Positions 752-24,330 of a stretch of 33,174 nt of DNA are shown one piece after another. The notes beneath the pieces are model-generated. The model was not told the DNA's origin, ran no database searches, and saw only the letters and a list, made by a program, of their open reading frames with translations. Positions within the stretch are counted from its first letter, which is position 1, and each line of letters begins with the position of its first letter. Origin of the DNA: a virus. The DNA lies in the IMG/VR virus record IMGVR_UViG_3300030060_004558, positions 1 to 33,174 of that record; one strand, written 5' to 3'. Made by a program: the position numbers and the translations under genes.

Positions 752-1363
752 CTAAAATTGGCCATATTCGGTTGCAGGACGGATTGCTATTAAAGTTCCA
801 CTTAGTTCTTGATCGTTGGCTTGCTCTTGGACCTCAGTTAAGAATGTTAAGAATTTATCTTCGTATAACGGTGCTCTTTCATCCAGGAAGTAATCTGCTG
901 CATAACCCAGGGCACCATAGATTATGAGATCACTTGCTACCTGGGCCAGAATGTTTTCATCGGAATCAGAAGACATCGCTGTAAATTGTGCATAGTAATT
1001 GAGTTTGACTGTCCCGGATGTGGGTTCCGGGAATATGAGAAAGTCTGAACCTTCCCTGGTGAAGAAATGAGGACTACCAGTATAGGTATTATCTTTGTAA
1101 TCCTGCATATCTCTGAATGTGATACGACTTAAGGAATGATCATCAGCATAAAGATCAATAGGCTCCAGGAAGTCATTCGGTATAGTCAGACTTCCAGTTT
1201 GTGCACTGATGGTGTAGGTGTGAGTTTTTTCCATTGAAGGTATACGTAACTGTCTCTGTATACGTGCAATACTTTGGTCAATGAATGTATCAGCCAGGCT
1301 ATTGGTGATATCACTTCGGTTCAGTAGTGCTATAAAGTGTGATCTTAAGTTTCCTAAGTTCAT
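752..1363 (-). CDS. Head-tail adaptor / tail tubular protein A-like
   Basis: A 203-residue protein of the size and position of the T7 gp11-type adaptor that docks under the portal and carries the tail nozzle. The N-terminus (MNLGNLRSHFIALLNR) is followed by a helical segment with FIDQSIARIQRQLR, then a beta-rich region with TGSLTIPNDFLEPIDLY and VKLNYYAQF, then a C-terminal helix containing YGALGYAADYFLDERA. This layout fits small podovirus adaptors that read 'helix, beta sandwich, helix'. It sits after the capsid gene and before a tail fibre, as expected for a connector component. The family call rests on pattern and context, not on a diagnostic catalytic motif. Confidence 0.65.
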   Translation of the reverse strand: MNLGNLRSHFIALLNRSDITNSLADTFIDQSIARIQRQLRIPSMEKTHTYTISAQTGSLTIPNDFLEPIDLYADDHSLSRITFRDMQDYKDNTYTGSPHFFTREGSDFLIFPEPTSGTVKLNYYAQFTAMSSDSDENILAQVASDLIIYGALGYAADYFLDERAPLYEDKFLTFLTEVQEQANDQELSGTLIAIRPATEYGQF

Positions 1364-1859: not shown

Positions 1860-3279
1860 CTATGAAAGACCAGTAATCATGCCACTGTCAGCAAACGATA
1901 GGTGTTTGTTTGACAGTTCAGCAGTTACAAGGTGCTTCTGAGAATCACCTGTGACCGCCATAGCAGTCCTAGTGTAAGGACGTAACACAGCGTTTCTGAA
2001 CATGGAAGGATCCATGAGATACGCGTGTGTCGATAGGTTAGCTTGCTGCCTATTTAGTACGACCTTGGTTTCAAAGAAAGGAGTAATCAATACATCAATC
2101 GTGTTGATCAATGTTTTATTATCGATTTCTCTGTTTCTTCCTGTCGCTGTAGCGAACGCAGCAACCAGGGTACTGTCAGCAGGTTTGATGCTAAGAACTG
2201 AGCACTCACTGCCGTTACTGAAGCAAGTTGATGACAGAGTCAAGAGCTTGGCTTCTGTTAAAGCATCTGTGCTATTACTTCCTGCATCAAGCGAAGTTGA
2301 GATTTGCTGATCCATCGAAGCCATTTTTCTGGCAGCCGATGCTGATCCGGCAACTACAGCTTGGCTAACACCACATAATGCTCTTTCATAATCTAGCTTG
2401 AGAGCCTTAAGTGTTTTCAGTTATGTTATCGTGAGTATGTTTATTACCCACTTCTATATATTTCTATATAGCTCAGACTATATCTTCATCCTATAAGGAT
2501 GTTCCGCGCTCTTGGAGTTAGTATTCTTTTAGTTAGTCAAACTCTAGTCGTTGAAGTTTCTACCTACTTTTACACTATTCGGTAGCTTACCTGCTGATTG
2601 CCCTCACCTTAATGTGTTAGGGTTTCCCAGCAATTCACGGAATTTCAATACATTATTACTAATGTACGTGCCAATTTTGTTTAGCAAGTTGGAAAGCCGT
2701 CTCTTTTGCACGTCCATAAGTTCGTACTGTCTCGGCAGTATTTGAGACCTGGAATGCTTCAGAAAATATCTGAGTAGTATTACTGCGCATTGTAGTTGGC
2801 GCAACAGTAATATAGCTTGCATCTGCTCCTTCAACAGCAGCGTTTACTGCTGATGCTCTTATCAGTTATGTTATCGTAGATAGGTTTATTATCTACTTCT
2901 ATATATTTCTATATAGCTCGGACTATATCTTCATCCCATAGGGATGTTGGGCACTCGTGGAAAAGATTATTCTTTGGTTAGTCACTTTTCTAGTCTCTGA
3001 ACCTTCTAACTACTTTTATACCTTTCGTTAGCTTGGCTGCTGATTGCCTTCACCATTACGTGTTAAGGTTTCCCAGTCAATTCACCCAATCTGGATACAC
3101 TATTACTAGTGTAACTGCCATTTTTGTTTAGCATCTTCCTGATACTCGAATGTTCTTGCGTGAACTTTGTCAGTTTTGAACATACTCTGCATAGGAGTTG
3201 AAGTTGGAGAGATATTTGCTATTACGTCAGACACATCTTCGGCCATTCCGATTTGTTGATATGTTTGATAAGTAGCCAT
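1860..3279 (-). CDS. Major capsid protein (DUF5309/SU10 type), three exons
   Basis: The gene is join(3279..3130, 2862..2683, 2417..1860) on the minus strand: 50 + 60 + 185 codons, giving 295 residues. Both introns fall between codons. Exon 1 starts MATYQTYQQIGMAEDVSDVI and carries the family signature ISPTSTPM..FKTDK near residues 24-40. The exon 1-2 joint reads FEYQEDA|IRASAVNAAVEGADA, matching the 'WQ.D.L..A..NA..EG.D' pattern of this capsid family. Exon 2 contains NTTQIF and ETVRTYGRAKE. The exon 2-3 joint reads FQLA|KTLKALKLDYERALC, the usual 'ElkrdlE.al' helix. The rest is the HK97-like body, ending with KVVLNRQQANLSTHAYLMDP. Unspliced RNA would stop at a TAG eight codons into either intron. 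The start has an AGAGGT ribosome-binding site and follows the scaffold gene. Splice sites are inferred, not observed. Confidence 0.88.
2418..2682 (-). ncRNA. Group I intron 2 of the capsid gene, 265 nt
   Basis: The 5' splice site follows the exon U in CTTGCT|AAACAAAAT. P1 pairs exon UGCU with the internal guide UGGCA and contains the required U.G pair. The intron ends CGATAACATAACTG with the terminal G. Core elements are readable: AATTGCTGGGAAACCC (P), GGCAATCAGCAGGTAAGC (Q), AACGACTAG (R) and AAGATATAGTC (S). GACTA of R pairs with TAGTC of S to make P7. Stem P2 is 2649-2655 with 2660-2666, closed by a GUAA tetraloop. P8 is 2487-2492 with 2496-2501. A 3' hairpin is 2431-2437 with 2445-2451. 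There is no room for a homing endonuclease and none is seen. It is about three quarters identical by eye to intron 1. Confidence 0.92.
2863..3129 (-). ncRNA. Group I intron 1 of the capsid gene, 267 nt
   Basis: The 5' splice site follows GATGCT|AAACAAAAA. P1 again pairs exon UGCU with the guide UGGCA. The intron ends CGATAACATAACTG. Core elements are GACTGGGAAACC (P), GGCAATCAGCAGCCAAGC (Q), GTTCAGAGACTAG (R) and AAGATATAGTCC (S), the classic group I consensus set. P7 pairs 2991-2995 with 2921-2925. Stems P2 (3096-3102 with 3107-3113), P8 (2932-2937 with 2941-2946) and a 3' hairpin (2876-2882 with 2890-2896) each differ from intron 2 by paired changes that keep the helix. No internal open frame of useful size was seen, so it lacks its own homing enzyme. 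Confidence 0.92.
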
Positions 3280-4705: not shown

Positions 4706-6742
4706 TTATCCGGTTGGACTTGCTATCGCTCTGAGATCATCGGCACTTCTAGCTAATTCTAGTTCTGCCTGGTCAATACGTTTCTTATGAGCAAGTTGTG
4801 CTTCTTTAAGGTCCATATTGTCAGATTGTATAGCGTGTTGGTTCTCTGCTTTAAGTGTCTCAAGTTCAATCTTGAGGTTATTAAGTTGTGCTTCCATGTT
4901 TGCTTTCATTTCAGCTACAGCAGTATTGCGTTCTTGTATCTCTAATTGTTTCTGAGCCATTTGCATTTGCATTTCTTGCATTGGATCAGGTTGTGGAGGT
5001 GGTAATTGATCTGGAGGTGTTAGGTATTCACTTGCATTCTTAATACCAGTTAAATCCATAATCTTAGATACCAGGGCATATTGATTCTCAGGTTGATACA
5101 TTGCAGCTAAATTAGGATCCTGGGAGAAATTCTGATGCATACCTAAGTATTTCTGTGCTTCTGCATCTTGCTCACCATATCCTAGGTGCAATGAGATTGA
5201 GACATCTCTTTTGTCGGCCCAGGTAGCCGGATCAATAGCTACATATTCACCAGCTAACTCTATGACTTTTTGTTCATCTTCGTTTTCAATTACCAGGGCA
5301 TAAATCTCTTGATATAAAGGCTTCAAGAATTGGGTAGCGAAATTCCTTGCGATAATCTTTTGTCGTTGTTGGCTCATGGTAGCCAACTGCTCGATCATGG
5401 CAGCACTGTTTTGTTTACTAACAGCATCTTTATTTGTGCCCTGGCTAATTCTGGATACACCAGTCGTATCTTCCATGTTTTCATCAAGCATTTTGATTGT
5501 TTGGAAGACGAATGGGTTAAGTTGTGACTGCTGCATTGGTGCAATTGCATCTGGCCGACTGACATTGACGATGCCACCGACTCTATTATCAATGAGTTCT
5601 CTTGGATTCGTTAAGCCACCTTTGACTACAGTGTAACGTGGGTTATTTGTAATCATGGCATGATCAAGAATAGACCTAGTTAAAACAGTCGTGGCTGCTT
5701 GAGTTGGAACTACTTTGTCACCAAAGTTAGCACCAAAGAACGAATGAGGAATCGGAAGTGGCGAGAACGAAATGAAGGGTATTCTGGAGGTTTTTCTTTT
5801 ATCAAGAATGCTATTCCCAGCTTTTATGATTTTATACAGTTCTGCCACTCCAGATGCATCAATATCTAACATAATGTAGGCTTCAATTACCTGGACACTT
5901 CTTACCTGGTCCTGGTAGCCATCAGCATTAAATCCACGATCACTAGAAACAGAATCGTGCCTAGCTAATACTTCAGGATCGGTTTCTCTATCTACATCGG
6001 AGTGATCACCAATCTCATTTATTAAATCTTCATCGTATCCTTCCATACGGAGTTCACTGATGGTCTTACGTGTTCTGTGAGCACAAAAGTTGACTGTGTC
6101 TAAACTCATGGCTTGAGGTTCTATGAGAAATTCTTCTGGTGCTATGGCTTCAATACATACTTTTGATGTATCTCGATAGACATTAATAGAACCTGTAATT
6201 AAATTTGTTTTTTCATCTTTAATTTGCTCAACAATCTCAACAGTGTCATCAGCAATCAATAGATCAAATTCATCTTGTGTTAAATTCTCAAAGTATTCGG
6301 TAGTAAAACTTGTCATTGGTGCCCAAAATACTTTGGCAATACCATTACGTGCTACTAAGCCATCATGTATTACTGTTTGCATTACTGAATAGAGATCATT
6401 TTGTCTGAATGCTACATAGTCTGCATACGCAGTGCACACTGCTGCATTTTGTATGTCGTTTTCATCTTCAGGATCAAACTTAACGATTTTATTACCGGCA
6501 CTGAAGGTTTCTAATAAGGCAGCTTTCATTGACTCTACCTGGTTAAAAACACTTTGTGAGACATATCTTGAATTACCGTCATGCTGTGGTTTCGGTAAGG
6601 TAGAATTGTAGTAGTCGTAGACTCTAGTTCTTTCTACGGATATTTCTGAGTCGTAATACCCTACAGATTTACTAACATTACTATCTATGAGAGTAACAAT
6701 TTGATCATCTTCGAGTTTCTTATACTCTTCTATTTTCGCCAT
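4706..6742 (-). CDS. Portal protein
   Basis: A 678-residue protein following the large terminase by one base (TAA then ATG) and preceding scaffold and capsid. It forms the dodecameric ring through which DNA is packaged and ejected. The N-terminal third is of the type 'VSKSVGYYDSEISVERTRVYDYY', with QSVFNQVESMKAALLETFS and TYADYVAFRQ-like helices. Residues about 330-420 contain ISFSPLPIPHSFFG, KVVPTQAATTVLTRSILDH and DTTGVSRISQGTNKDAVSK, patterns common in long podovirus portals of the BPP-1 / epsilon15 kind. The C-terminal about 110 residues are a Gln/Met/Glu-rich coiled coil, suiting the barrel that projects into the capsid. It is longer than T7 gp8 (536 aa), which supports a non-T7 head module. 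Confidence 0.88.
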   Translation of the reverse strand: MAKIEEYKKLEDDQIVTLIDSNVSKSVGYYDSEISVERTRVYDYYNSTLPKPQHDGNSRYVSQSVFNQVESMKAALLETFSAGNKIVKFDPEDENDIQNAAVCTAYADYVAFRQNDLYSVMQTVIHDGLVARNGIAKVFWAPMTSFTTEYFENLTQDEFDLLIADDTVEIVEQIKDEKTNLITGSINVYRDTSKVCIEAIAPEEFLIEPQAMSLDTVNFCAHRTRKTISELRMEGYDEDLINEIGDHSDVDRETDPEVLARHDSVSSDRGFNADGYQDQVRSVQVIEAYIMLDIDASGVAELYKIIKAGNSILDKRKTSRIPFISFSPLPIPHSFFGANFGDKVVPTQAATTVLTRSILDHAMITNNPRYTVVKGGLTNPRELIDNRVGGIVNVSRPDAIAPMQQSQLNPFVFQTIKMLDENMEDTTGVSRISQGTNKDAVSKQNSAAMIEQLATMSQQRQKIIARNFATQFLKPLYQEIYALVIENEDEQKVIELAGEYVAIDPATWADKRDVSISLHLGYGEQDAEAQKYLGMHQNFSQDPNLAAMYQPENQYALVSKIMDLTGIKNASEYLTPPDQLPPPQPDPMQEMQMQMAQKQLEIQERNTAVAEMKANMEAQLNNLKIELETLKAENQHAIQSDNMDLKEAQLAHKKRIDQAELELARSADDLRAIASPTG

Positions 6743-8314: not shown

Positions 8315-8774
8315 TCTCGCCCTCTTCTTCTTTCATCAGGTCAACTAAGAAATCTTCTGCTTTCGATATTGAGACATCGGATTTAGTAGCAGGTTTTGAC
8401 TTAGTAAAGTCCAGGACAAGTCTTGCAGCACTGAGTCTTTCTCTAGTCTCTCCGGGAGTGCGTATTATTTCTACTGCACATTGGAGTGCTTCTTTGGCTG
8501 CATCATCTTCTGGTATATCAAATTTCTTTGTCATAATTTCTACTGCCTTTTTTGCTTCTTCTTTCGCTTGTTTTCGTAATGGCGCAATGGTTTCTTTAGT
8601 GTGGCCATCGGGAACACCTTTTGGTCTACCAGGGTTCTTTCTTTTCTTAGTAGACCATTCTTTTCTTAATGCTCTACCTTCTGGAGTAGACATTAATGTT
8701 GCGAAGTAGTTATTTTTAGGTGCTTTTTGTGGATGTATAGATTTCTTAGGTGCTTTTGCTCTAGTTTTTCTCAT
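8274..8774 (-). CDS. Terminase small subunit (putative)
   Basis: A 166-residue protein directly upstream of, and overlapping, the large terminase. The N-terminal 60 residues are strongly basic (KTRAKAPKKSIHPQKAPK, KKRKNPGRPKGVPDGH) and suit DNA binding. The middle is helical, with DDAAKEALQCAVEIIRTP and RERLSAARLVLDFTKSKPA, the last phrase being common in phage small terminases. The C-terminal 25 residues are acidic. The role would be recognition of the packaging site and control of the large subunit. No helix-turn-helix can be defined with certainty, so the call leans on context. Confidence 0.7.
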   Translation of the reverse strand: MRKTRAKAPKKSIHPQKAPKNNYFATLMSTPEGRALRKEWSTKKRKNPGRPKGVPDGHTKETIAPLRKQAKEEAKKAVEIMTKKFDIPEDDAAKEALQCAVEIIRTPGETRERLSAARLVLDFTKSKPATKSDVSISKAEDFLVDLMKEEEGENEEETQGSKEETT

Positions 8775-21900: not shown

Positions 21901-22923
21901 TTATTCGTGAAATAAATCAGTTTGTGGTGGATTTACTCTTTTCTTTGCCAGTGCAATATATTCTTCGTTTAATTCAATCAAGACTGCATTGCGATTGTGC
22001 TGTTGTGCTACCAATCCTGTCGTGCCAGCACCACCAAAAGGATCTAAAACTGTACCGGGTTTAGTTTCATTGGTTTCGCATTGGCATTGTTTTTGCATAC
22101 CTAAATCTATTGGTGGATTTTCTCTATTATATTTATCCCATACACCACCAATCTTTCTGTCATTTGTACCACTTCTTTTGTTTCTTTCCACCTCTAATGG
22201 CTTTGGTTTTTGTATAATTCGTTTATAAGGTTTTTCACAATCAGCACACACCTTCTCTGGACAACCAGCTAAAACACATGGCTCAATCAGATCAGGCGGG
22301 AAGGTTGCAAAGTGAGCACCTTTGAATGGTTTGGTGGTAATTCTCCAGACCGAGCGTTTGTTTCTTTTCCCATCATAAATTTTATATTCAGGTGGTCGAG
22401 CATTTACGCCTTTTTGGTTTTGTCTTTCTTCGCTGCCTTTAGCACCCTTAGTTCCAGCCTTGATAACACCATCTTCCTTAATCGCTCCATGATCAAAGTA
22501 ATACTTCTTGTTCTTACTCAACAAGAAAATATATTCATGTGCCTTTGTGCAACGATCTTTGACACTCTCAACCATTGGGTTAGGTTTATGCCAGATGATG
22601 TCTTGTCTTAAAATCCATGAATCTTTTTGTAAAGCTAGTGCAACTCTAAATGGAATACATCCTAATTGTTTGTTAGGTAAAAAACTATCGCCCAAGTTAA
22701 GCCAAACTGTGCCATCATCTCGCAACACTCGCTTTACTTCTCTGAATACATTAACCAAGTTCTCTACAAATTCTTCTGGTGTATCTTCTAAACCTAATTG
22801 TTCTTCTTCATCTTGATAATTTCTAAGGCCAAAATAGGGTGGCGAAGTAATACAAGTGTTAATGGATTGCTCTGGCAATTCTTTGAGTTTGTCTAGGCAA
22901 TTACCATGAAGAAAAGTAATCAT
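21901..22923 (-). CDS. DNA methyltransferase, beta-class amino type (N4-C or N6-A)
   Basis: A 340-residue enzyme that transfers a methyl group from AdoMet to an exocyclic base nitrogen. Catalytic motif IV is CITSPPYFGLRNY (residues 24-36), and the AdoMet motif I LDPFGGAGTTG lies near residue 293. This order, IV before I, defines the beta class. SPPY is most common in N4-cytosine enzymes but is also found in N6-adenine ones, so base choice is left open. A Cys cluster, GCPEKVCADC with CQCE further on, is probably a structural zinc site in the target-recognition part. No matching restriction gene is present, so it is a lone phage methylase, probably protecting the DNA or altering regulation. It starts within TAATG after the C5 enzyme. 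Confidence 0.9.
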   Translation of the reverse strand: MITFLHGNCLDKLKELPEQSINTCITSPPYFGLRNYQDEEEQLGLEDTPEEFVENLVNVFREVKRVLRDDGTVWLNLGDSFLPNKQLGCIPFRVALALQKDSWILRQDIIWHKPNPMVESVKDRCTKAHEYIFLLSKNKKYYFDHGAIKEDGVIKAGTKGAKGSEERQNQKGVNARPPEYKIYDGKRNKRSVWRITTKPFKGAHFATFPPDLIEPCVLAGCPEKVCADCEKPYKRIIQKPKPLEVERNKRSGTNDRKIGGVWDKYNRENPPIDLGMQKQCQCETNETKPGTVLDPFGGAGTTGLVAQQHNRNAVLIELNEEYIALAKKRVNPPQTDLFHE

Positions 22924-24330
22924 TACTTATTCTCCTTGTTGTAGTCAGCTAATATGGCATTGCCAATATGAAACATTATTTGTGGCACAATTGAATTGCC
23001 TAAACACTTCAAGCGATTCACTCGATGTTCTTTTCTGGTGGTTACTCTGGGTATGTCTGGTTCACTTTCAAAACCTAAATGATCTTCTAACTGCATTGGC
23101 TCGGTATACTCAGGATCGGTATAGCCTGTTGCATATCCCATTAGCCATTCCACCCAATCAGGATTAAGTGCACCTTTCTCCATCTTCTCAACTTGTGCAT
23201 CTAACCTTGCGCCATACTTAGTGCCAGTTGTATTAGAAACCCGATAGTATTTACCATCTTCTTCTACAATCGTTCCATGACCACCCTTGTAATCTCTGGT
23301 GCTTGGAGTTGGCCAAGTTTCTTGTGCAATCTTTTCTTCTAAATTACCTTTATCCCTTCCTCTACGTTTAACATTATCAATACTCTCAGACATTGCTGCT
23401 GATGCTCTTGGAGTTGGCCATAGTTTTTCTTCTTCATAGCCAACAGCATCTTTTAGTTTGACTCCGAATCTGACACCTTTTTTATTGACTCTGGAATATG
23501 AGTCATTCTTCTTTTCAACATTCTTAACAACACCACCCTCAGTATCGGATACTCTTGGAGTTGGCCACATATTCACTTGATCGGCTAAATTTAAACTATG
23601 GCTGCTCTTGCCATCTTTAGATTTTCTTCTGCCAGTATCAGTAAGTTCAGCATTAGGATGTTCAATCTCTTGTGTGGTTGGAGTTGGCCACATTTCTGGA
23701 TGTACAACTTGCTCTCTGAGATTTCCACTTCTTGATCTACCCTGTCTATTCTTTTGATTTTTACTGCAATCTTCTGCTGATCTTGCTGGTAAGCCATCCA
23801 TAGTGTTAGGAGTTGCCCAAGTATCACTCTTGGATTTTTTTCCCGATGATCCAGACTCGATCCCTTCGGTGGGGAGCTTTGACGGATAAAGCTGGAATAA
23901 TAAACGCCGCCGTAGCGTAGCCTTCGGCTTCCAAGTCATTTGATACGAGGTCGGCCCCTCCCAGGGTGACGAAACCATTAACGTTTTCGACAACAACATA
24001 AGTGGGTCCTTTGCCTTTAACAATTTTAAACATTGCCGGCCAGAGGTGGCGGTCATCTTCTGTGCCTTTTTGTTTACCGGCGGCACTCCAACTTTGACAT
24101 GGCACTCCTCCACAGATGAGGTCGTGGTCGGGAACAGTTCTGATTGTTTCTTCATCTTTAGCTAGATCCTTTAAGTCATTAAAAATTGGTGTATTAGGGA
24201 AATTCTTTTTCAGTATCTTTTGGCAATATTCATCGAACTCACAAAATCCAACAGTTTCAAAACCACCTGTTGCGTGTAATGCAAGACTAAAACCACCAAT
24301 GCCTGAACAAATGTCAAACACTCTTAACAT
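22923..24330 (-). pseudogene. C5-cytosine DNA methyltransferase split by a frameshift
   Basis: Two frames together make one enzyme. The first part (24330 to about 23840) has motif I FDICSGIGGFSLAL, motif IV with the catalytic cysteine GVPCQSWSAAG (C78), motif VI VVVENV and motif VIII APHRRDRVWIIGKK. It then runs into a TGA at 23824. The second part, in the next frame, continues with SKSDTWATPN, five W(P/A)TP-type segments forming the target-recognition region, and motif X NRLKCLGNSIVPQ, ending at 22923. The frames meet at a run of seven A (23835-23841). Dropping one A gives an unbroken 468-residue protein with all motifs. The break may be a real mutation, programmed slippage or a sequencing error. 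The ribosome-binding site is CAAGGAG. Confidence 0.85.

Follow-up and report, generated by a model that had tools for sequence, protein, structure and literature searches.

The window analysed here, a 33,174 nt stretch of viral DNA from IMG/VR record IMGVR_UViG_3300030060_004558 (positions 1 to 33,174), contains a capsid gene with two inserts on the reverse complement of positions 1860-3279. The features at this locus and those of the neighbouring structural genes are as follows.

752..1363, minus strand: SU10 adaptor protein (PF24175), which supports an SU10-type structural module
1860..2417, minus strand: exon 3 of the major capsid gene, 185 codons plus stop
2418..2682, minus strand: group I intron 2, 265 nt, between codons 110 and 111; internal guide sequence (IGS) as in intron 1; RF00028 score 102.8 bits
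2683..2862, minus strand: exon 2 of the major capsid gene, 180 nt, 60 codons
2863..3129, minus strand: group I intron 1, 267 nt, between codons 50 and 51; IGS GGCA, pairing with exon UGCU; RF00028 score 91.9 bits
3130..3279, minus strand: exon 1 of the major capsid gene, 50 codons, 3' end GAU GCU
4706..6742, minus strand: portal protein (phrog_1216)

The splice sites (3129/2863 and 2682/2418) were chosen by reading frame, a U at the end of the exon and a terminal G of the intron. Joining the exons at these positions gives 50+60+185 codons, a capsid protein of 295 residues that matches PF17236 (SU10_MCP) over residues 6-294 (E=5.2e-64, 217 bits against a cut-off of 24.1) and also matches phrog_1328, a major head protein. 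A reading made earlier from the sequence alone had placed two introns in a major capsid gene at 2418-3129 with the same 50+60+185-codon product; its coordinates proved exact, on the minus strand, the PF17236 match bears out the identity of the gene, and the joints are those seen in intronless alleles (below). At the DNA level, therefore, these alleles and the full-length family match agree that the joining is exact at both introns.

The window also encodes a T7-type RNA polymerase, a helicase-primase, a DNA polymerase, endonuclease I and an integrase, which makes this a podovirus-like, possibly temperate phage; no related prophage turned up when bacterial genomes were searched. Among the 20 window proteins that were scanned, Pfam recognised no homing endonuclease. 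Elsewhere in the window, a 168-aa ORF with a C5 DNA methylase domain (23824-24330) overlaps, in another frame, a 410-aa ORF that has no Pfam match, and the region 22923-24330 may represent a frameshift or a split gene.

An Rfam scan of the whole window returned two matches above threshold, both to RF00028 on the minus strand, at 2692-2454 and 3151-2899 (E-values 8e-26 and 1.4e-22; gathering score 50; model positions 1-253). A search with this covariance model had been proposed as a check on the group I reading, and both introns match it. Over 262 aligned bases the two introns share 84% identity, and neither contains an ORF. Both have the P1 with a U.G pair, the terminal G and the common 3' end that had been noticed earlier, and the paired changes reported between them (P2 C-G to U-A, P8 C-G to U-A and two A-U to G-C changes in a 3' hairpin) are present; it can be seen that there are more, with G-C to C-G twice in P3 and further paired changes in P5, P6 and P6a.

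A group I structure was built by hand (P2, P3, P4, P5, P6, P6a, P7, P7.1, P8 and two 3' hairpins) and counted on three sequences, namely introns 1 and 2 and a related third intron from the relative L017. Across these three, pairing holds in 95.3% of 172 cells and both sides have changed in 20 of the 58 pairs; none of 500 shuffles reached any of five structure measures, and pairing falls to 32-44% when partners are slid by one to three columns. Among the core helices P3, P6 and P8 covary, whereas P4 and P7 are invariant and hence neutral. Folded as single sequences, both introns beat all of 200 shuffles (z of -3.5 and -3.7). P7 is separated from the 3' strand of P3 by a 30-40 nt insert with a hairpin, at the place where subgroup IA has its P7.1/P7.2 insert; the pairs of this hairpin hold in 75% of cells. 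The window introns probably belong to subgroup IA. A tandem duplication of one intron is an unlikely origin for the pair, as the copies lie 180 nt apart and their flanks are unrelated.

Empty sites are found in close relatives. Two IMG/VR contigs, L003 and L004, encode capsid proteins 95-96% identical to the joined product in a single uninterrupted frame, and their DNA joins exactly at the intron sites; a third intronless allele (L005) has 86% protein identity. A further relative, L017 (IMGVR 3300030104_003597, from a separate metagenome), lacks intron 1, carries an intron 2 that differs by 1 base, and bears another group I intron, its third site, inside codon 220. Close relatives are therefore polymorphic for the presence of introns. 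Intron 1, whose joint agrees with the empty alleles, was found in one contig only, that of the window. A DNA pattern specific to the 5' ends of the two introns hit 32 IMG/VR contigs, 31 of which are coding sequence without an intron core, leaving only L017 as real.

Taken together, the covariance model, structural covariation, splice joints and empty-site alleles sustain the group I reading, and we are confident that the inserts are sister self-splicing introns in an SU10-type major capsid gene, and that related introns sit at 12 positions of this gene in related phages. That splicing takes place we infer from these observations. In the transcript each intron would fold, the folded intron would dock the terminal UGCU of the 5' exon on its guide GGCA, and each would then excise itself with GTP, the exons joining into the 295-residue protein.

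We addressed how common such introns are by sampling relatives of the window. Sampling anchored on the capsid gene itself was biased towards uninterrupted genes (introns in 0 of 50 records) and was discarded; the portal gene (4706..6742) was used as anchor instead, so that capsid genes were sampled without bias for or against introns. Introns were present in 18 of the 46 complete capsid genes obtained in this way (one in 12 genes, two in 4 and three in 2), a fraction that is rough since some of the contigs are near-duplicates. A scan of 159 records with RF00028 gave 41 matches in 28 records, all within the capsid gene as checked with capsid proteins; many of the records are fragments around head genes, which favours a capsid-only result, and several of the intron-bearing ones span 19-41 kb. 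Capsid introns are therefore common, not odd, within this group of uncultured phages. In cultured phages with the same capsid family the gene is in one piece among the matches listed from the phage collection.

In all, 36 introns of 244-286 nt were mapped in 25 capsid genes, and the 24 genes uncut by a contig end encode 291-297 residues after joining. None of the 36 has a supported endonuclease ORF, the longest stop-free frame being 90 aa. The capsid frames of L131 and L136 (start at 8479) apparently open with ATC (ATC GCT TTA TTT TCC), with no ATG, GTG or TTG seen at the usual start place. A generic intron-core pattern also picked up many uncultured phages (L213-L292) in which the flanks resemble capsid, tail sheath, psbA and polymerase genes. 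Similar introns thus sit in a wide range of phage genes besides this one, among them psbA, polymerase and further virion genes, and the core was rejected as a group-specific marker; virion-gene introns may be common in uncultured phages.

The 36 introns occupy 12 sites in the one gene, ten beyond the two of the window: residues 6.33, 18.67, 25, 50, 55.33, 55.67, 106.33, 110, 219.67, 221.67, 224 and 224.33, where the fraction gives the codon phase and numbering follows each gene itself or its nearest reference. The sites do not lie at especially conserved capsid positions (p=0.29). In each of the 31 distinct exon-intron pairs, those of the window among them, the first four exon-IGS pairs are standard, the U at the exon end pairs with a G of the guide and the intron closes with a G; for most relatives the mapping script demanded the U and G. 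Pair 4 of P1 occurs in five types (A-U, G-C, U-A, C-G and G.U), and exon and guide covary both between L016 (GGACAU/GUGUCC) and L161 (GGGCAU/GUGCCC) and between L107 (ACCGCGU/GCGCGG) and L121 (ACUGCGU/GCGCAG). The mean P1 is 5.5, compared with 3.8 when exons are permuted among introns (sd 0.2, maximum 4.6); choosing P1 as the best match in a stretch of 50 nt in itself favours pairing, and the permutation control puts the level reached by this alone at about 3.8. Of the indirect evidence that the introns act on these exons, this natural covariation is the strongest.

At site 50 the nearest empty alleles have GCA rather than GCU, a target that would not pair at the splice site, and the target must therefore have changed before or after insertion. 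Between L017 and the window GCA ATT CGT becomes GCT ATA AGA, so that four synonymous differences lie no more than 6 nt from the junction, compared with two in the 188 nt around it (p=1e-4); the cluster could stem from a short conversion tract or from later adaptation. At window positions 2851-2863 exon 2 opens with ATAAGA, the counterpart in relatives being ATTCGT; UCGUG, from the older sequence, could base-pair with CACGA within intron 1, and the recoding may avoid a misfold. A general recoding of exon ends to the guide was considered and rejected, being significant at site 50 (p=1e-4) but not at site 220, and it is further undercut by L117, as intronless relatives already have a ready target there.

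We next considered the relationships among introns at different sites. In a tree built on 258 columns, in which many forks are weak, site labels change 12 times against a minimum of 11, indicating that introns mostly stayed at their site and rarely founded new ones. Both window introns and both introns of L017 form one clade (support 100/99) that spans sites 50, 110 and 220, in keeping with the earlier description of the window pair as sister copies, and the intron at site 55.67 of L010 pairs with that at site 224.33 of L124, again at 100/99. At each site related introns have been passed down or acquired again, and they have also moved to other places in the capsid gene. For ten related cross-site pairs, exon bases -4..-1 are alike in 95% of cases and -8..-5 in 38%, with 22-23% elsewhere, which is background; the 3' exon side is not shared above background. 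For all cross-site pairs, 62% of bases -4..-1 are alike. Sharing of four exon bases is as expected for P1-guided reverse splicing and fits it without proving it; the requirement for P1 in splicing would also select shared exon bases.

Intron RNA would, on this model, reverse splice into capsid mRNA, steered by a P1 match of 4-7 bases, and the product would then undergo reverse transcription and recombination. We regard this sequence of events as the most likely way of moving, at roughly even odds of being correct. Somewhat more tentative is the fuller proposal that an endonuclease-free intron lineage colonises new positions of the capsid gene by reverse splicing into an abundant mRNA, with exon and guide then co-evolving, which would amount to natural transposition of group I introns at the RNA level in a protein gene.

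Spread at the DNA level is the main alternative, and we consider it unlikely, though by no means negligible. Here a homing endonuclease, either free-standing or formerly intron-encoded and since lost, would cut the capsid gene, an intron-bearing copy would repair it, and new sites would arise from relaxed cleavage. The high site fidelity (12 label changes for 12 sites) speaks for this reading, and the cluster of differences at the site-50 junction between the window and L017 resembles a short co-converted tract. In three more distant records (L220, L249 and L266) an HNH-like ORF adjoins an intron core directly upstream of an SU10-type capsid gene; these are possible endonuclease-bearing relatives. 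However, the 36 introns hold no endonuclease ORF, the scanned window genes yielded only the T7-type endonuclease I, and cross-site sister introns have about four exon bases alike, on one side only.

The shared guide raises the possibility that exon 1 is joined to exon 3, which would give a second, in-frame capsid variant of 235 residues. Both introns do have IGS GGCA and exon end UGCU, and skipping between group I introns is known in Twort orf142 and the SIOphi polymerase gene, as these are described in PMC10136302 and PMC11878797; but the product would lack 60 conserved residues of the family fold, and the arrangement is not conserved, many related genes having one intron or differing guides, so that we think it improbable. 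That the inserts are an artefact of assembly, or are dead and lie in a gene that is itself damaged, is scarcely credible: intron 1 is known from a single contig, but the 16% difference between the two introns includes compensatory changes, intron 2 and its flanks recur in another metagenome, the exons are undamaged and share 95-96% identity with intronless alleles, and the same pattern is found in 27 other records.

Group I introns of phages have usually been described in genes for polymerases, nucleotide metabolism and terminase and in a few others; a recent survey has asked why only such genes are occupied (PMC11878797). Here the host is a virion gene made in great amounts, interrupted in about four in ten of the genes sampled, and the intron of the window group resembles a mobile RNA whose spread has been, for the most part, inside a single gene. 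Reverse splicing is a proposed route of spread without direct experimental proof (reviewed in PMC3984707); with both filled and empty sites among close relatives, introns that are short and more than one or two sister pairs, this group offers a natural system for testing it. Split capsid genes of uncultured phages can also be missed or mis-annotated.

The kind of arrangement seen here is already known: introns in capsid genes, and sister introns within a single virion gene, have been described before (PMC3706429, PMC7886860, PMC10136302). Staphylococcus phage Twort orf142 has three group I introns (Landthaler and Shub, 1999; PMC10136302, PMC11878797), and as presented in these accounts it resembles the window gene in coding for a virion protein, here that of the tail tube, and in holding several introns of which two are very alike; Twort's are of subgroup IA2. 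Unlike the window, it is a gene of one phage, with a 23-nt exon between the sisters, and not a capsid gene; no series of sites across a phage group, such as the window's relatives display, is described there. The sequence-only reading had called a small, ORF-less sister pair in a capsid gene unusual, which is too strong: Twort orf142 is a precedent in a virion gene, and in this group of uncultured phages capsid introns are common. DNA identity between intron 2 and introns of the Staphylococcus and Bacillus phages PMBT8, CF5 and SP-15, which are unrelated phages, is 71-77% over partial matches.

The major capsid gene of mycobacteriophage LittleE likewise contains a probable group I intron, with splicing established by RT-PCR and protein sequencing; the LittleE intron is single, 819 bp long, bears a LAGLIDADG-like endonuclease ORF and lies in a different capsid family (PMC3706429). 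In uncultured crAss-like phages of the Zeta group the capsid gene is in five pieces with several group I introns, but these were recognised by encoded endonuclease domains and occur in many genes, whereas those of the window group are ORF-less and in the capsid gene only (PMC7886860). Fungal rDNA introns, which sit in nuclear rRNA genes rather than a phage protein gene, similarly have kin at different sites where only the guide-pairing exon bases are alike, and such sharing is the criterion by which spread through reverse splicing was inferred there (PMC1299323). No description of ORF-less introns that fill a dozen sites in a single capsid gene across a group of phages was found in the open-access literature, and the spread of such introns largely within one capsid gene appears to be new.
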